A stretch of 64,000 bases of DNA from Pseudomonas benzenivorans (GTDB lineage Bacteria; Pseudomonadota; Gammaproteobacteria; Pseudomonadales; Pseudomonadaceae). The DNA lies in NCBI RefSeq assembly GCF_033547155.1, contig NZ_CP137892.1, forward strand, positions 3,348,001 to 3,412,000, written 5' to 3'. Shown piece by piece: positions 57,416 through 64,000 of this stretch. Each line of letters begins with the position of its first letter. The stretch's first letter is position 1. Both the position numbers and the translations under genes were made by a program. Below the pieces are notes generated by a model. That model saw nothing but the letters and a program-made list of their open reading frames with translations. It ran no database searches and was not told the origin of the DNA.

Positions 57416-58336
57416 TCAGGGCGTCTCAGGCAGTCGCCAGCGCAGGGCCAGCGCCGCCGGCCGCCGCACCAGCTGCTCGACATCCAGGTGCCAGAGCCGC
57501 TCGGCGCCCGGAAAGGCGCGGATCGCCTCGCCCTCCAGGGTCAACTCGGTGCGCCCGCTGAGCTGCAACAGCGTCCCGCTGGCGAAGTCGATAAACAGCA
57601 GGCCGGCACGGGGGTTGAGCAGCAGGTTGCCCAGGGTGTTGAAGTGCAGGTTGCCGGCGAAGTCCGGAATGCTCAGGCGATTGCCCGCCACCCGCACGAA
57701 ACCGGCCGGGCCGCCGCGGTGCGAGACGTCCACGGCCGGGCGGCCGTCGGCCTGTACCACGTAGCTGGCGACGAAGCAGGTGTCCGCCGCCTCGATCATG
57801 GCCGCGGCGCGGGCATCGAGGTGATCGCGGCGTTCGGCGGGCTGGCCGGTGTCCACCGCCGCCGGCCGGGGCTCGAGCTGGCGCGGCTGGATGTAGCGCG
57901 GGCAATTACCGAAGCTCTGCTCGACCCGAATGTCGAGGCGCTCGGGCTGGCAGCGGCTGACCCGGCCGTTGAGGCGATTGCGCCGACGGCTGTGCAGCTC
58001 GATGCCGAGCAGGCCGATGGCCGCGCCCTCGCCCAGGGCCCGGGCAGCGGGGTCGCGCGGGTCGCGGCGGCCGTGCAGTTGCAGGCTGTCCGGCGTCGGC
58101 GCCCGGGCGAATCCCGGCTGGCCCTCGAGCAGCCCCGCCCAGGGGCGTCCCCGCTCGTCCACCGCGCCGATCAGCACGAAAGGCAGCTGGCGGTAGAAGT
58201 CGCGGTGTTGGTCGGGCAGGTAATCGCGAATCACCTTGCGGCCGACCGCCTCCATCCGCTCGGCCACGCCGGCGCGGGCCTGCAGGTGCTGCTCCCCGGC
58301 GTGCCAGGGTGAGGAAGGGCTGGAGACTGTATGCAT
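57416..58336 (-). CDS. Pyridoxamine 5'-phosphate oxidase-fold FMN-binding protein
   Basis: A 306-residue protein with two split-barrel PNPOx-like halves. The first includes IRDYLPDQHRDFYRQLPFVLIGAVDERGRPWAGLLEG; the second DTCFVASYVVQADGRPAVDVSHRGGPAGFVRVAGNRLSIPDFAGNLHFNTLGNLLLNPRAGLLFIDFASGTLLQLSGR. These proteins bind FMN or heme and are often called flavin-nucleotide-binding proteins. The ATG at 58336 has a GAGGAG site; an in-frame start 48 bases before it is less likely. It lies 69 bases after the GST gene, forming a small redox cluster. Confidence 0.86.
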   Translation of the reverse strand: MHTVSSPSSPWHAGEQHLQARAGVAERMEAVGRKVIRDYLPDQHRDFYRQLPFVLIGAVDERGRPWAGLLEGQPGFARAPTPDSLQLHGRRDPRDPAARALGEGAAIGLLGIELHSRRRNRLNGRVSRCQPERLDIRVEQSFGNCPRYIQPRQLEPRPAAVDTGQPAERRDHLDARAAAMIEAADTCFVASYVVQADGRPAVDVSHRGGPAGFVRVAGNRLSIPDFAGNLHFNTLGNLLLNPRAGLLFIDFASGTLLQLSGRTELTLEGEAIRAFPGAERLWHLDVEQLVRRPAALALRWRLPETP

Positions 58337-58405
58337 GGCGACGGCTCCTCGATCGAAGAAAGGGCGGCGGCGCACCGCTTGCACGGTGCGGCGGGCGCCG
58401 CGCGC

Positions 58406-59035
58406 TCAGGCGGTCTGCAGGCCGACGGCGCTGCGCGGCATCGGCACGAAACCCGGCAGGGCCTCGATGCGCGCCAGCCAGGCACGCACATTGGGATAGT
58501 CGTCCAGGGACACATTGCCCTCCGGGGCATGGGCGATGTAGCTGTAGCCGGCCACGTCGGCGATGGTCGGCGCGTTGCCGGCTAGGAACGGGCTGCCGGC
58601 CAGCTCCTGATCGATGACCCCGAGCAGGGCGTGGGAGCTGGCGATGGTCGCCTCGGCATCGTAGGGCGCCGCGAAAACGGTGATCAGCCGCGCCCTGGCC
58701 GGCCCCGAGGCAAGGGGCCCGGCCGCCACCGAGAGCCAGCGCTGCACCCGGGCGGCGGCCACCGGCTCGTCCGGCAGCCAGCGACCGCTGCTGTCGTACT
58801 GCTTGGCGAGGTACACCAGGATGGCGTTGGAGTCGCTGAGCACCGTGCCGTTGTCGTCGATCACCGGCACCTGGCCGAAGGGATTCATCGCGAGGAACTC
58901 CGGGTGCTTGTGGGCGCCCTTGGCCAGGTCGACGAAGACCGCTTCGGTCGGCAGACCGAGCAGCGAGAGCATCAGCTCTACGCGGTGTGCATGGCCGGAC
59001 AGCGGGTGACGGAAGAGTTTGATGGCATGGGACAT
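58406..59035 (-). CDS. Glutathione S-transferase
   Basis: A 209-residue GST. The N-terminal domain is [75 protein letters not shown], with S13 as the likely activating residue and DSNA binding the glutathione gamma-glutamyl part. The C-terminal helical domain ends in [19 protein letters not shown]. The ATG has a GGAG site. It heads the minus-strand GST-PNPOx-DUF1348 cluster, which points to handling of electrophiles or oxidants. The substrate is unknown. Confidence 0.9.
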
Positions 59036-59188
59036 GATGAACTCCGCATTCGGGTGAGTGGCTCAGGCGGTGGCGTTGCCGGGCCGGTCCGCGCTGATGT
59101 GGGGTCATCTTGTCCGGCAAAGACGCAAGACAGAATCACCAGAACCGGCAATCCTTTCTTTCACTCAGCGAAATAAAGCGGGGATCGT

Positions 59189-60088
59189 TCAGCCCAGGGC
59201 CGGATGCTCGCGCAGCCGCCTGACGGCGAAGTCGACGAAGCTGCGCACCCGCGCCGCGGCGCGCCGGCCCTCGCGATAGACCAGCTGTACCGGCAGCTCG
59301 GGCGGCTCGAAGTCGCTCAGCACGCGGCGCAGCTGCCCCTGTTGCAGCAGCCCGTGGACCTGATAACTCATGCAGCGGGTCAGGCCCGCGCCACCGCAGG
59401 CGGCGGCGATGGCCGCCTGGTCGGTGGCGCAACTCAGGCGCGGGACGAAGCCCAGGGTGCGCCAGCGCCCCTGTTCGACAAAGCGCCATTCCGGCAGACG
59501 CGAATCCGCGCTGGAGTGGATGAGGCGATGATCCGTCAACTCCGCGGGCTGCCGCGGCTCGCCCTGCTCGGCCAGGTAAGCCGGGCTGGCGCAGACGATC
59601 CGGCGAACCGCGCCGACCCGGCGGGCGAACAGCGACGAATCCGCCAACGCACCGACCGCGATGGCCACATCCACGCCCTCCTCCTGCAGGTTGGGCACTC
59701 CATCCCGGTACTGGGCGAAGATCTGCACCTCGGGGTAGGCGCCCAGGTAATCGAGCAGGATCGGCGTCAGCACCTGCTGGCCGAACAGCAGCGGCACGAC
59801 CAGATGGAGTCGGCCGCGGGCCTCCACGTGCAGGCCGCAGGCCGAGGCTTCGGCCTCGGCGACCTGGGCGAGGATGCGCCGGCAGTCGACGAGAAAGCCC
59901 TCGCCGGCCTCGGTCAGCGTCACGCCACGGGGACCGCGCGCCAGCAGTGCGACGCCGAGGCGGCCCTCCAGCGCGCCTATGGCCCGCGTCACCGTCGGCG
60001 CAGAGAGCCCCAGGCGGCGCGCGGCGGCAGCCAGGCCGCGGGCCTCGGCCACGGCCTCGAATACCCGCAGTTCCTGGTAGCGGTCCAC
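59189..60088 (-). CDS. LysR family transcriptional regulator (downstream paralogue)
   Basis: A 299-residue LysR protein starting at the GTG at 60088 (MDRYQELRVFEAVAEARGLAAAARRLGLSAPTVTRAIGALEGRLG). It has an N-terminal winged helix and a LysR substrate-binding domain with VPLLFGQQVLTPILLDYLGAYPEVQ and DVAIAVGALADSSLFARRVG. It is closely similar to the gene directly upstream (60091-61005), and its start is only two bases past that gene's stop. The pair looks like a tandem duplication. The minus-strand GST cluster downstream is a possible target. Confidence 0.88.
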   Translation of the reverse strand: MDRYQELRVFEAVAEARGLAAAARRLGLSAPTVTRAIGALEGRLGVALLARGPRGVTLTEAGEGFLVDCRRILAQVAEAEASACGLHVEARGRLHLVVPLLFGQQVLTPILLDYLGAYPEVQIFAQYRDGVPNLQEEGVDVAIAVGALADSSLFARRVGAVRRIVCASPAYLAEQGEPRQPAELTDHRLIHSSADSRLPEWRFVEQGRWRTLGFVPRLSCATDQAAIAAACGGAGLTRCMSYQVHGLLQQGQLRRVLSDFEPPELPVQLVYREGRRAAARVRSFVDFAVRRLREHPALG

Positions 60089-60090
60089 GC

Positions 60091-61005
60091 TCAGCCCTGC
60101 CGCTGCGGGTTCAACGCGGCATTGGCGCCGAGGCCGGCGGCGCAGAAGTCGACGAAGGTGCGCACCTTCGCCGCGACCTTGCGCCCCCCCAGGTGGACCA
60201 CATGGACCGGCAGCGCCGGCAGTTCGTAATCGGCCAGGACGATCTCCAGCTCGCCGGCGGCGACCTGGCGGGCAACCTGATAGGACAGGGCCCGCGTCGG
60301 CCCCCAGCCGAGGCAGGCGGCATTGATGGCCGCCTGGTTGGCGGTGACCACCAGGCGCGGCTGCGACCGCACGCTGAGCGGGCCGCCGGGGCCACTGAAC
60401 TGCCAGTCGCTGACCAGGCTGCTGCTGGCGGCGACCACCGCATCCTCCAAGCGCAGGTCCTGCGGACACCTCGGGCGGCCGTGCTCGGCCAGGTAGGCCG
60501 GCGCCGCGCAGATCACCTGGCGCACCTCGCCGACCTTGACCGTGTGCAGGCCGCTGTCGGGCAGGTTGCCGATGCGCACCGCCACATCGACGCCCTCGTC
60601 GACCATGCTCACCACGCGGTCCACCAGCAGGGCCTTGATCTGTACCGCCGGATGACGCTTCAGGTAATCCACCAGCAGCGGCGTGACGAACAGCTCGCCG
60701 AACAGCACCGGCGCGGTGACGGTAAGCTGGCCACGGGCGACGGCGTGGCTGCCGGCGGCCGACTCCTCGGCCTCCTCCAGCTCGGCGAGGATGCGCCGAC
60801 AGTCCTCCCCATAGCGCTGGCCGGCCTCGGTAAGGCGCACGCTGCGGGTGGTGCGGGCCAGCAACAGGGTGCCGATGCGCGCCTCCAGGGCGGCCACGGC
60901 GCGGGTCACGCTGGGCGGCGACATGTTCAGGCGGCGCGCGGCCGCAGCAAAACCCTGCGCCTCGGCCACGGCCAGAAACACCTGCATTTCCTGGAAACGA
61001 TCCAT
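60091..61005 (-). CDS. LysR family transcriptional regulator (upstream paralogue)
   Basis: A 304-residue LysR protein (MDRFQEMQVFLAVAEAQGFAAAARRLNMSPPSVTRAVAALEARIG) with the standard helix-turn-helix and inducer-binding domain (APVLFGELFVTPLLVDYLKRHPAVQIKALLVDRVVSMVDEGVDVAVRIGNLPDSGLHTVKVG). It shares most motif positions with the following gene. An 8-bp perfect palindrome lies 46-67 bases upstream of the ATG and may be its operator. The inducer is unknown; relatives of this subgroup often control aromatic or quinone reductase genes. Confidence 0.9.
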   Translation of the reverse strand: MDRFQEMQVFLAVAEAQGFAAAARRLNMSPPSVTRAVAALEARIGTLLLARTTRSVRLTEAGQRYGEDCRRILAELEEAEESAAGSHAVARGQLTVTAPVLFGELFVTPLLVDYLKRHPAVQIKALLVDRVVSMVDEGVDVAVRIGNLPDSGLHTVKVGEVRQVICAAPAYLAEHGRPRCPQDLRLEDAVVAASSSLVSDWQFSGPGGPLSVRSQPRLVVTANQAAINAACLGWGPTRALSYQVARQVAAGELEIVLADYELPALPVHVVHLGGRKVAAKVRTFVDFCAAGLGANAALNPQRQG

Positions 61006-61050
61006 TAGCGGCTCCTGTGCGAATGCCGGCAGTGTCGGCGAGTTGTTTCA

Positions 61051-61072
61051 CCGTGCGCAACAGTGCGCACGG
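61051..61072 (-). promoter_or_regulatory. Palindrome upstream of the LysR pair
   Basis: CCGTGCGC (61051-61058) and GCGCACGG (61065-61072) are perfect complements around AACAGT. It lies 46-67 bases before the first LysR start codon, where an autoregulatory site would be expected. The centre does not show the usual T-N11-A core clearly. Confidence 0.4.
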
Positions 61073-61470
61073 AGGGCCGCTTATTTCCTCGATCCTTGTT
61101 AGGAGCCCAGCGCTGCCAGGCCAACACGCCCGCGCTGCAACGCCGGGCCACGCAGACAGTGGCGCCCATCGGCCACAACGAGGCGACGGCCCTCGCCAAC
61201 CAACTGGTGCGGGTTGGCTGGCCGCGGTGGTGCCATGCGCGGCGCTTCAGCGGCGATTGGCACAGCGCCAGGCCCGCCTGACGGCGGGGGTAATCAGGAT
61301 GGGGTGAAGGTTTTCATGGGGTTGTGTTGAGCAGCAGCACTGTCGGAACAGGCGAGTCCTGCAGCGGAACAAGGCCGATAACAATCATGATCTGAGGGAT
61401 CGATTGAACGCTTGGCCCCCGCTGCGCGAACTACAGAATGGCCAGGGCGGCAATGCCCACAACAGGCCGG

Positions 61471-61550
61471 ATATACGCATGCAACCGCACTGACGACAGG
61501 GTTGGAAAAGCTATTCCTCATCTACTTGCGGGGAGAGTCCATATACGCAT
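61471..61550. repeat. 10-bp direct repeat near the left edge of the AT-rich segment
   Basis: ATATACGCAT occurs at 61471-61480 and again at 61541-61550, exactly 70 bases apart, in the same orientation. The similarity does not extend beyond one or two flanking bases. The second copy adjoins GTTATAT, so it may belong to a recombination site of the cassette that ends at 61570. Confidence 0.35.
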
Positions 61551-61569
61551 TGTTATATGACTCCCACTG

Positions 61570-62313
61570 TTACTTTCCGTCTCTTTGCTTAATATGCTCT
61601 TGGGTTTCGTCAGGTATAATGCCGCTGTAGAGCTGGTCTAGCTCTCTTGGTTTTGTTATTACTTCGTCAGCAATGAAGTTGAGTATGCTGAATAGTTTGG
61701 TGGCAATTTCGCTGTTGTCGTCCAGGTTTATTTGACCAGGGTGGACGGCGTTATTGCCTACTACTCTTAGTATATCTAGTGCCTGTTGGATTTTTGGGCT
61801 CAAGCCTTCTGCTACTAGCTCTTTTATATCGTTGTTTATGTTTTTACCGCTTTTCCCTACTTGCTTTAATAGTTTTTGTAGGGCGAGGCGAAGTAGCGCC
61901 GTAGCTCCTTTGGGTGAGTCAACGAATATGGTTGCTGCTTCTTGGTATATTTCTTTAATGTCTTCATCCATGTCGCCATTTGGAGGTGGGAGATTGGTTT
62001 TTCTTGGGTAAACCAATTTTTGGTCAACCCATAATGAAATGTCTTTGCAAGATATGCAGGTTGAAACAGAGAAGTTTTTTGGTATGGCGCTATGAATGTT
62101 TCTTTAAAAATATCTGTTGATTGTTTCGATGAATGAAGAAACAGCATTCTGCTGGTAATCTTTGATTCCAGTTATATAGTCGTAATAAATATGGCTTATA
62201 GTTTCTCTGATGATGCTTCCTGCATTGATTGCATTGAACCAATCTTGTTGTGCTGTAACCTTGCAGTGTGGGCATTGAAACTTACTGCTTCCAAAGGATG
62301 GCGATTTTTCCAA
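61570..62313 (-). pseudogene. DUF4145 protein gene interrupted by an in-frame ochre codon
   Basis: One 248-codon frame from the TTG at 62313 (site AAGGAG, eight bases before) to 61570. It is broken by a single TAA at 62104-62106 after 69 residues. The upstream part holds one zinc-ribbon knuckle, CPHC, in FQCPHCKVTAQQDWF. Past the stop the frame goes on in phase with the second knuckle CISC, then SLWVDQKLVYPRKTNLPPPN and the DUF4145 core (EIYQEAATIFVDSPKGATALLRLALQKLL, ALDILRVVGNNAVHPGQI). The two knuckles must belong to one protein, so this is a nonsense mutation, unless the downstream part restarts at a TTG such as 62016. Composition is AT-rich and unlike the chromosome. DUF4145 proteins of unknown role often occur in mobile or defence-related DNA. 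Confidence 0.8.
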
Positions 62314-62339
62314 TTTGATTTCTCCTTCGGTCAGAGATC

Positions 62340-62430
62340 ATATAACGCTCCGCTAAACGGCGAGCGTTAGCGAGTCCGGTGGAGGCCACGTTTTTTTTGT
62401 GGCCGGAACGAATTTGAGCGGCTTGTTACA
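62340..62430 (-). other. attC integron cassette recombination site
   Basis: On the minus strand the element runs from TGTAAC (62425-62430) to GTTATAT (62340-62346). The outer arms pair as the R boxes, and the next arms, GCCGCTCAAA and TTTAGCGGAG, pair as the L boxes with one extrahelical base (62416 on the plus strand). This is the diagnostic attC plan. Inside, GGCCAC (62384-62389) and GTGGCC (62399-62404) form the central stem around a T8 run, with TCCGG/CCGGA outside it. It starts 11 bases after the stop at 62441 and ends 27 bases before the next start at 62313, as expected between cassettes. Confidence 0.75.
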
Positions 62431-62440
62431 TTCTGACGTA

Positions 62441-63075
62441 CTAAAGATCAGAATAGCCTTTTGCAAACTCTCTATCTATTTCATTAGTAGACTGATATTT
62501 GGAGACTGCTATCGAAACCGAAAGATTTGCAAGCTTATTTAGCTTTTTTTCATACTCTTCTTTCTGTTCAAGTGTTTCTTCTAGCTTTGTTCCCAAGTCA
62601 ATTTTTGGCTGAGCCATTTTCTTTTCAAGCATATATTCTGAGGAACTTGTGCAACGATCAATTATTCTTTGGTGCAAATCTATTTGCTGTGCAATTACCG
62701 ACAATATAGTTTGCTTATAGGAGTTCACTTTTTCGTGCTCATAAGAAGATTTAGCGCTGGAAAGCTGCTCTTCTTGGGAGTTGAGAGTTTTGACTTGTAA
62801 TTCATGCAGTTTTGAAAACTCGGCAACTTGGGTTTCTAAAAACTTTTTTGCAGCCTTATGGTGACAATAATGGCTACCAGTGTCACAAAAGAAACTACTG
62901 GCGCAAACACTCCACCAAAGAAAGAGCCTAATGCTGACCAGTCAGCCGAAGCACTTGATATTTCACCCGAAAATGTACTTTTGTAAAAGTATACAGCTAC
63001 TAACAAGCCTGAGAGCAAACCGAATATGGAGAAATAAAGAACCAACTCTAAAGGGTCTTTCTTATTATTTTTCAT
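62441..63075 (-). pseudogene. Membrane/coiled-coil protein gene with a frameshift in a poly-A run
   Basis: The first 79 codons, from the ATG at 63075, encode two membrane helices (LVLYFSIFGLLSGLLVAVYFY and APVVSFVTLVAIIVTIRL) with the family-like WSALGSFFGGVFAPV linker, then stop at 62836 just after LQK. A minus-one shift (or one more A) in the run of six A at about 62846-62851 rejoins a frame reading LETQVAEFSKLHELQVKTLNSQEEQLSSAKSSYEHEK. This continues to MNSYKQTILSVIAQQIDLHQRII and ends at 62441. The restored protein would be about 211 residues: two helices plus a long coiled coil. Such proteins are known as hypothetical cassette or phage-region proteins. Either a frameshift mutation or recoding explains the break. 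Confidence 0.75.
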
Positions 63076-63116
63076 AGAATCACGCAACCCTGACAAAGAA
63101 TGCAACTAAAATTAGA

Positions 63117-63150
63117 CGTCAAGTGATGTGCATAAACGCGTCATTTGACG
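63117..63150. repeat. Inverted repeat upstream of the membrane/coiled-coil gene
   Basis: CGTCAAGTGA (63117-63126) and TCATTTGACG (63141-63150) are complementary at nine of ten positions around a 14-base loop. It lies 42-75 bases before the start of the frameshifted gene and could be an operator or a leftover integrase-binding region. Confidence 0.5.
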
Positions 63151-63157
63151 GATAACA

Positions 63158-63237
63158 TTCCCTGCCATTATCAGCGCAGCCTCTCTAGCTTGAGGCTTCC
63201 GGCCTGTGGCGGGGGTCTTGTGGGGTGTTATGCACCT
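63158..63237 (-). other. Weak second attC-like site
   Basis: In minus-strand orientation the ends GCATAAC and GTTATCC can pair over seven or eight positions, with CCC/GGG next to them and an inner stem AGCCTC/GAGGCT around AAGCTAGA. The length, about 80 bases, and place, upstream of the first cassette gene, suit an attC or attI end. L-box complementarity is poor, so this may be chance. Confidence 0.3.
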
Positions 63238-63522
63238 GAGGTGGCGCATCGGCAACCCTGGGTAAGCATTGGCGTACCATTTTTGCATCGGCGAATTACT
63301 CAGTTAAAACAGTCGATGCAAGCAGGGGAAAGCTATTCGGCGTCCTGCCTGCGGGGTGCGTCATTGCGTGGGCTGAAACTACCCGAATGCGGAGTGCCGT
63401 CACAAGTTGTTGTGGCGAAGCGCCCTCCATTTCATCGGACTTGCCCTGCCCATTGCACCGGGCTAGAGTGCGCCGGTCACGGTCAATCCCGTGGCCGGGC
63501 GTGACAACCCGAAATCAACCAA

Positions 63523-63536
63523 GGCGCGGTAGCGCC
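63523..63536. repeat. Short perfect hairpin
   Basis: GGCGC (63523-63527) and GCGCC (63532-63536) pair around GGTA. It is followed at about 63548-63572 by AGCCGG...CCGGCT around a T7-containing loop. Both are part of the structured leader region ahead of the 63586 element. Confidence 0.45.
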
Positions 63537-63585
63537 ATAGCTGAGTAGCCGGCGCTTTTTTTGTGCCCGGCTATCGCATTTCTAT

Positions 63586-63663
63586 GGTGGGCCGTGCGGG
63601 GCAGGCTTCGGCCTGGCCGGTTTCCTTGGTTGCCGGTTTGTCACCCCCGTACGGTCCGCCACC
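63586..63663 (+). ncRNA. Candidate structured leader RNA (three-way junction)
   Basis: GGTGG (63586-63590) pairs with CCACC (63659-63663). After a small internal loop CCGTGCGGGG (63592-63601) pairs with CCCCGTACGG (63645-63654) over ten positions with one G-U wobble. Inside are a very stable CAGGC-TTCG-GCCTG hairpin (63602-63615) and a second hairpin of CCGG (63617-63620) with CCGG (63633-63636), around a loop with CCTTGG. The unit GCCGGTTT is directly repeated. The element ends 57 bases before a leader ORF. I cannot match it to a named RNA family from memory; a similar sequence may be present in Pseudomonas integrative elements. Confidence 0.5.
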
Positions 63664-63720
63664 CAAACCGCGTGACAACGGTGGGTGACGGCTCCTTAAT
63701 CAAACCAGGGAGCATAAGGA

Positions 63721-63807
63721 ATGCGCTATCCACCTTTTACCCAAGGGCTCCACCTTGGGCTGTTTGTCTTGTCGTTCGCCTCCTGCCTGGAGGTGCGTTA
63801 TGGCTAG
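63721..63807 (+). CDS. 28-residue leader ORF containing a Shine-Dalgarno-masking hairpin
   Basis: An ATG at 63721 with AGGGAG eight bases upstream opens a 28-codon frame, MRYPPFTQGLHLGLFVLSFA then SCLEVRYG, ending TAG at 63805-63807. Its end overlaps the start of the next gene (ATG at 63800) by eight bases in another frame. The frame contains a perfect 7-bp hairpin (63740-63746 with 63753-63759). A second hairpin, CCTCC (63779-63783) with GGAGG (63789-63793), covers the ribosome site of the next gene. Translation of the leader would open that hairpin, so coupling is likely. No homologue is recognised. Confidence 0.45.
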   Translation: MRYPPFTQGLHLGLFVLSFASCLEVRYG

Positions 63808-64000
63808 ATTCCACGCTGTTGTCGTTCCCTTCCCCAGGCGTTACGAACCACTCGATTGCCTCGATGGCCAGGGCTGGCATTTCCAGGCGGCGGCCGAGTT
63901 GCGGGTGGCGATGCTGCATAAGCTGTTCGACATCCTGGCGCGCATGGAGGCGTCCAGCCCCGGCGCAGGGCCGCTGCATGAGGCCTGCGACAGCGCCCGC
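63800..64000 (+). CDS. Unidentified protein, 5' part, running off the window
   Basis: An open frame from the ATG at 63800, with a GGAGG site six bases upstream, stays open to the right edge: 67 residues with no stop. It begins MARFHAVVVPFPRRYEPLDC and includes a Trp-rich DGQGWHFQAAAELRVAMLHKLFDILARM helix region. Codon use is GC-rich. I do not recognise the family. Its leader and composition suggest it is the first gene of an integrative or plasmid-like element, but only the next sequence can show this. Confidence 0.6.
   Translation, partial: MARFHAVVVPFPRRYEPLDCLDGQGWHFQAAAELRVAMLHKLFDILARMEASSPGAGPLHEACDSAR

Follow-up and report, generated by a model that had tools for sequence, protein, structure and literature searches.

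An orphan attI site with a small cassette array in Pseudomonas benzenivorans, and the spread of such sites through the genus

The DNA analysed here, called the window, is a stretch of 64,000 nucleotides from Pseudomonas benzenivorans (GCF_033547155.1, NZ_CP137892.1, positions 3,348,001 to 3,412,000), which lies on a one-contig chromosome of 4.50 Mb. In keeping with the genus, the best named matches of the PlsB protein of this genome are in Pseudomonas sp. MBLB4123 (99%) and P. lalucatii (93%). Between 61094 and 63236 it shows an attI site, two cassettes with recognizable boundaries and broken genes, an attC site, a second attC split by an insertion sequence (IS) and, in the place of an integron integrase gene (intI), a C4 unit (Table 1). 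Read on the minus strand, the order is attI (63236–63104), cassette B (63105–62346), attC, cassette A from 62345 leftward, an attC half (61559–61541) and a truncated IS to 61094. The segment 61094–63236 is best explained as a small array of integron cassettes attached to an orphan attI, here meaning an attI that has its promoter region but lacks intI.

Table 1. Features at the right end of the window (window numbering)
Feature	Position	Strand	Basis
Truncated IS, IS1111-attC type (IS110-family transposase end)	61094..61545	-	83–94% identity to copies in the intI array; right edge by eye
5' half of cassette A attC (CATATAAC), split by IS	61541..61559	-	By eye; covariance model 4.9 bits, E 9.7, very weak
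Gene A, second piece, 177 aa	61570..62103	-	Pfam PF13643 (DUF4145) 58.9 bits; PADLOC PD-T7-4 235.6 bits
Gene A, first piece, 69 aa	62107..62313	-	ORF; PADLOC PD-T7-4 24 bits
attC between cassettes B and A	62340..62431	-	Covariance model 40.2 bits, E 2.7e-6; top box-pair score
Cassette B	62346..63105	-	TTGCAT directly after attI crossover; end at attC; sequence by eye, junction alignment
Gene B, second piece, 135 aa	62441..62848	-	Coiled-coil-like by eye; 8 homologues
Gene B, first piece, 79 aa	62836..63075	-	ORF; membrane segments by eye
Orphan attI with intI promoter region, crossover G 63106	63104..63236	-	nhmmer, 40.0 bits, E 3.3e-11
C4 unit in place of intI, two small ORFs	63230..64000	+	Same-genome copies 92.4%, 76%; left edge by eye
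c4-a1b1, C4 RNA targets	63463..63515	+	Rfam RF03163, 51.8 bits
C4 antisense RNA	63580..63666	+	Rfam RF01695, 90.4 bits

Both cassette genes are broken in the window, and unbroken copies of both exist elsewhere. Gene B is interrupted by a frameshift near 62840–62850; its second piece has no Pfam match above the cut-off and no clear match in PADLOC. The closest of the eight relatives of that piece is an unbroken protein of 223 aa (96% identical), and one relative is from P. taeanensis. Gene A contains an in-frame stop at 62104–62106, with both pieces in one frame. At E ≤ 0.001 there are 4070 relatives of its second piece; the nearest unbroken one is a 247-aa protein that is 97% identical over the piece. 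The same 3' piece matches the PADLOC model of the phage-defence gene PD-T7-4 at E 9.5e-71, so that cassette A fits the remark in a preliminary description of this DNA that anti-phage functions have been found among cassettes of this kind. Compared with PD-T7-4 (PMC9519451; the papers given by PMC number were available in part, and what is said of them holds for those parts), the pieces of gene A match model positions 6–36 and 41–208 of 211, whereas the in-frame stop and the location in a cassette set it apart. Other phage-defence-like cassettes were seen at related attI sites (L and G numbers denote our loci and genomes): a TIR-domain protein at L139 2743–3615 (by eye) and, by PADLOC, a PDC-S21 cassette at L021 5506–6492, which joins the PD-T7-4 homologue at 61570–62313 of the window. 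A plasmid search with the cassette pair gave one 51-bp match only.

The element at 62340–62431 is an attC site by its box architecture and its covariance-model score. Because the cassette genes lie on the minus strand, its bottom strand is the plus strand of the window. The boxes are R'' ATGTAAC, L'' CCGCT(C)AAA with one extrahelical base, L' TTTAGCGG and R' GTTATAT. When both strands of the 64 kb were searched for box pairs, the site ranked first with a score of 14.4, which was reached in none of 60 whole-window and none of 1500 local (61500–63140) dinucleotide shuffles (best shuffle 14.1); an earlier control with cruder shuffles gave two hits in 10, the best at 13.8. The covariance model, with R and L pairs, was built from 19 sites at 10 loci of other genomes, with 13 sites originating outside the genus. 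With default filters the site was its sole match at E ≤ 10 in 64 kb; with filters off, three further matches appeared in 58000–64000, at E 2.2 to 9.7. A profile of 13 Pseudomonas-type attC sites matched part of the element at E 0.5 only, so that this attC is of another type. Further, the R'' of cassette B (ATGTAAC) pairs with the first bases of its own cassette (GTTGCAT) except for one G–T, and the R'' of cassette A (CATATAAC) is the exact complement of the start of cassette A (GTTATATG), both by eye. Each cassette thus closes on itself, as cassettes do.

The preliminary description had read 62340–62430 as an attC-like element with R and L boxes and an extrahelical base, set between two same-strand genes, and had proposed a covariance-model run and a bottom-strand fold as checks. 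The element itself is confirmed by the box-pair and covariance-model scores. Its position between genes on the minus strand also stands, with the amendment that both genes are broken and that the attI at the far end had been missed. Free folding of the bottom strand is modestly better than that of shuffled sequences (z −2.0; 4 of 200 shuffles equally good), but the minimum-energy fold differs from the canonical R/L pairing, and free folding is weak as proof of the site. A low covariance score, together with the absence of other attC sites and of an integrase from the genome, had been named as what would speak against the proposal; the score is high, other attC sites lie in the same genome beyond the window (covariance model), and a broken intI lies at 3.244 Mb. 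We regard as negligible the probability that the element is a chance hairpin or a REP-like repeat between ordinary genes. The modest advantage in free folding and the lack of a second copy of the element in the genome would suit such an origin, which is already contradicted by the covariance-model match, the R''/R' agreement for both cassettes and the attI at the other end.

The attC of cassette A is split by the truncated IS. The stretch 61094–61556 matches three places in the array beside the broken intI (L021) at 83–94% identity, two of them whole copies with long transposase frames and one a remnant. Each of the three sits behind an attC half (by eye), and a whole copy in L021 has the transposase domains PF02371 and PF01548. 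The IS1111-attC group, including ISPst6 and ISKpn4, is characterized by an IS110/IS1111 transposase and by insertion in attC (PMC11187229). The window IS shares the transposase type, shown by the whole copy in L021 and for the window copy by DNA identity, and the insertion in attC, as attC halves flank the L021 copies (by eye) and an attC half precedes the window copy; it differs from the group in being truncated. As a separate observation, all three attC sites read in the intI array (L021 4040–9000) bear a copy or a remnant of this IS, so the family seems to have shut that array site by site. Related IS ends at both places could also mean that the cassette pair is a piece of the intI array (3.244–3.250 Mb) moved by recombination between IS1111-attC copies. 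We consider this very improbable: the pair owns an attI and a C4 unit, and the intI array has an attI and three cassettes different from these and ends beside plsB. Transposition or inversion out of the intI array was likewise ruled out by the pair's own attI and its different neighbours.

The attI was recognized with a profile of nine attI/promoter regions that adjoin intI, eight from relatives and one from the broken intI of this genome. The window match covers model positions 4–137 of 141, with homology up to the crossover. Over 16 loci comprising 241 kb, the same profile gave 77.5 bits at L108, 47.3 at L140, 43.4 at L104, 41.6 at L139, 40.0 in the window (a stretch also contained in L022), 32.4 at L145 and 23.0 at L105, and the next match had E 0.9. 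A covariance-model search of the P. benzenivorans genome found five attI matches. The same attI stretch recurs at 313.6 kb (L104) and 774.5 kb (L105) of the genome, followed by different cassettes that begin at the same base. L108, the fourth orphan attI of this genome, carries other cassettes again and keeps about five intI codons (by eye); the gene beside it is presumably a DUF3422 gene. A promoter search on the attI side of the window gave one match against 0.7 expected in shuffles, and thus no clear promoter, which counts against the best explanation given above. In the intI promoter regions (e.g. L144 4371–4453), a pair GTATAAC ... GTTATGC about 80 bp apart resembles attC R boxes; this pair between intI and attI is possibly a second recombination site or a product of chance.

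Stray cassettes are otherwise known to originate from insertion at a non-classical genomic site (attG; PMC12444791). The window could accordingly be a small integrase-less cluster inserted by chance at such a site, which we hold to be highly improbable: its junction matches attI together with the intI promoter region over model positions 4–137 (40.0 bits), not a short core, and this match already contradicts an attG origin. For such an origin it can be said that attG insertion by IntI is already known, reportedly from the work of Loot and colleagues of 2024, which is cited in PMC11023631.

The C4 unit beside the attI consists of a C4 RNA, its a1b1 targets and two small ORFs, the first without a Pfam match. 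It occurs four times in the genome, in the window and at L104, L105 and L106, with 70–92% identity of the other units to that of the window, where the homology to other copies extends to 64414 in window numbering. At L104 and L105, PAAR-like genes follow the unit, the one at L105 with a long C-terminal part like that of a type VI secretion effector (by eye). We take the C4–attI stretch to have been copied as a unit. Among the 107 attI loci inspected (see below), C4 units lie at most 700 bp upstream of six, three in this genome, two in the related genome G262 and one in G308; the confinement of the link to three genomes is a point against the best explanation given above. When the best two candidates per genome were scored, 63100–63600 was matched in at least 75 of 398 genomes of the genus, and most of the matches listed cover the C4 part alone. 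An exact pattern of the platform had no match in genome and viral contig collections, in which this genome is possibly not included.

The only recognizable intI of the genome lies at 3243361–3244435, 166 kb from the window array and beside a different array, and it is broken (TIGR02249, 353.9 bits summed over pieces), with one TGA, several frames and, mid-match, a gap of about 135 bp containing a palindrome of the MITE-like kind (by eye; L021 2750–2890, genome 3.2437 Mb). Over 260 bp across this insertion G262 shows 98.8% identity, and an open frame of 410 aa, free of stops, is reported there to span both intI pieces; the interrupted integrase of G262 might still be working. That the interruption is common to G262 counts against assigning which integrase served the window sites. 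The cassettes of the intI array encode a membrane-looking protein, a DUF4917 protein (PDC-S21 in PADLOC, 429 bits) and a cold-shock-domain protein. The preliminary description had seen integron cassettes with an attC and no integrase in view, and had advised searches for intI and for further attC sites. Its observation holds: the window has an attC by the covariance model and no intI match, so that no intI adjoins the attI of the array, and beyond the window the genome contains other attC sites and the one broken intI. Its suggestion that this is the end of a larger array with an integrase outside the window fails, as the array possesses an attI and is delimited by the C4 unit and, at the opposite end, by the truncated IS. 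Another cassette cluster in this genome (L107 5000–7500, at about 1.571–1.573 Mb) has an attC of 38.1 bits and an IS end, and no match to the nine-site attI profile.

The chromosomal integrons of Pseudomonas (P. stutzeri type) comprise the IntI, attI and attC arrays of the genus. The window array differs from them in lacking intI and in its attC of 92 bp, compared with 76–78 bp in the arrays compared. The preliminary description also offered a cluster of attC sites lacking integrase (CALIN), and this reading survives in part: no intI lies nearby, as in the CALIN definition of IntegronFinder 2, but the array has one whole attC and a second split by the IS, below the default of at least two. A single attC without an integron integrase, as found in the window, is termed SALIN in Shewanella, where CALINs occur as well and slightly more attC sites per array were noted in genomes with intI (PMC9229058). 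The window is thus closest to a SALIN, with one whole attC. It resembles CALINs and SALINs in having cassettes and attC without a nearby intI, whereas its array starts at a recognizable attI. In Xanthomonas, conserved chromosomal places of CALINs were reported and their mobilization in trans was discussed (PMC12444791). Sites of the attI type outside class 1 are poorly described and are undetected by IntegronFinder 2, so an orphan attI would go unseen (PMC9024848, as far as available).

Additional or displaced attI sites have been described in a few settings. A CALIN with its own attI is known from the Shewanella prophage M16-3, where the available text concerns one prophage with two attI (PMC9892861), compared with up to seven scattered attI per genome in 129 of 398 sampled genomes in Pseudomonas. 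Complex class 1 integrons such as SGI1 contain two attI, a first and a second one, within a single element, with separate cassettes at each (PMC7056807); SGI1 is a mobile resistance island, whereas the Pseudomonas attI are chromosomal and at separate loci. Unusual Delta-attI-type cassettes of mobile integrons carry an attI away from intI that is functional with IntI1 (PMC12901181); there, a partial attI lies inside a resistance cassette, whereas the window attI opens a chromosomal array. Use of attI-like secondary sites by an integrase has also been described (PMC10127599, available part).

What is new in the present work is the orphan attI together with the spread of such sites in Pseudomonas; a literature search, with most subscription papers outside its scope, found no report of scattered multicopy attI in Pseudomonas. 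The genus was surveyed with a sequence-only covariance model of the nine attI sites in 398 genomes at E 0.01 per genome, a threshold at which about four false matches are expected. At least 255 matches were found in at least 129 genomes, both counts being lower bounds, as the best eight candidates per genome were scored under stricter filters. An intI match (E ≤ 1e-40; best five candidates per genome scored) was found in 48 genomes; 43 genomes had both attI and intI and 86 had attI only, among them G413, in which an internally deleted intI lies beside an attI. The mean number of attI was 2.65 in genomes with intI and 0.37 in the others (rank test p 3e-25, kinship ignored), and 17 of the 48 intI genomes had four or more matches, with a maximum of seven in G280.

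We inspected 107 attI loci, comprising 100 fetched attI places and seven found earlier. They were hand-chosen, and the second batch passed over places adjoining a listed intI, so that proportions among them are not population estimates. An intI is adjacent at 10 of these loci (nine full length; L315 with an internal deletion), 12 have an intI fragment of less than 150 aa, and 85, from 53 genomes, have none in the sequence retrieved, which usually extended 2 kb towards the intI side and less at some contig ends. Of these 85 loci, 11 have less than 3 kb of downstream sequence. At least one attC lies downstream on the same strand at 61 of the 85; in total, 169 attC sites lie downstream on the same strand versus two elsewhere (HMM of 13 sites from intI-linked arrays, E < 1e-3). 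The window scored zero here, as its attC belongs to another type. At 43 of 97 intI-less attI loci (L274–L373) the homology into intI stops within −3 to +27 bp of the start codon, and at 18 within +89 to +111; the full range is −78 to +149 bp. With this spread, the ends are at most a possible sign of a single common excision point.

We consider it likely that the window holds a decayed array at an orphan attI that was once served in trans, service in trans being what we infer. Counted in favour are the attC, the attI homology, the five attI matches of this genome beside a single, broken intI, and the other cassettes at its other orphan attI; across the genus they are joined by the larger number of genomes with attI than with intI, the attC downstream of 61 of 85 loci and the higher attI number where intI is present. 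An integron integrase acting in trans would have inserted the cassettes by recombining the orphan attI with attC, the latter as its folded bottom strand, and the cassettes would have been read from the attI side. Since the only recognizable intI is now broken and the distal attC is split by an attC-targeting IS, the array is probably frozen and decaying, and the pair of cassettes looks dead. A simpler course of events would be plain decay, in which the orphan attI and its array are the remnant of a complete integron that lost its intI in place, with nothing happening since. This we find unlikely, though well within consideration. It is in keeping with the broken intI of this genome, with the intI fragments of less than 150 aa at 12 of 107 loci and the internally deleted intI of L315, and with the very different ends of intI homology (−78 to +149 bp). 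Against it, up to seven attI per genome would require many complete integrons in one genome.

Three further comparisons bear on use in trans, the first two also on plain decay. Orphan attI sites keep 0.873 of the conserved columns in the attI half versus 0.722 in that of the promoter, the values for ten held-out intI-adjacent sites being 0.930 and 0.940. The better preservation of the attI half speaks against plain decay and favours use in trans. Similarly, clustering of orphan loci by upstream sequence gave 54 clusters, 10 of them with more than one member, and 77 within-cluster comparisons with homologous upstream flanks (75–96% identity over 154 to 705 bp), 73 of which were between genomes and 38 of these with attC on both sides. 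No comparison (0 of 77) showed a match of at least 100 bp in the first 450 bp after the attI, and 19 of 77 shared something of at least 130 bp within 3.5 kb. As homologous intI-less flanks share no first stretch after the attI, the content changed after the loss of intI, contrary to plain decay. Third, L104 of this genome and L140 of G262, which represent a single locus, are 84–91% identical on both sides and carry different cassettes in between. Both the divergent content after attI and the L104/L140 difference favour use in trans. Deep divergence, old cassette loss and paralogy in the C4 cluster could explain part of the cassette differences; the cluster mates of the window, in the C4 cluster, include paralogues, and at loci that gave no attC match, what follows attI may simply be chromosome.

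The distribution of attC with respect to intI points the other way. Orphan attI with attC make up 39 of 53 in genomes with intI and 22 of 32 in the others (Fisher p 0.63; counts p 0.11), or 40 of 54 and 21 of 31 when G413 is moved (p 0.62 and 0.12). This equal share is against use in trans and in line with plain decay. From 29 of the first 40 loci it had seemed that orphan attI with attC go along with an intI in the same genome, a correlation that vanished with 85.

The textbook integron is one block of intI, attI and array. The integrase-less landing sites scattered through many Pseudomonas genomes suggest that an integron need not be one compact machine. As a tentative model, to which we give slightly less than an even chance, Pseudomonas would have distributed integrons: attI, multiplied and dispersed on its own, would provide several landing pads per chromosome, each with a promoter side and an array and all served by one IntI in trans; in some lineages it would have fused with a C4 unit and been duplicated together with it as a composite. 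Should attI be multicopy and in most cases without intI, many CALINs, which are currently interpreted as degraded integrons or as stray attG insertions, would be platforms that work in trans, and their origin becomes testable by simple attI × attC assays. Searching with the attI model also uncovers arrays of cassettes, phage-defence homologues among them in some cases, that integrase-based searches leave unassigned to a platform. If distributed integrons are real, a genome would keep its cassettes in many separate places, and present software would miss most of these, since it does not look for attI outside class 1.
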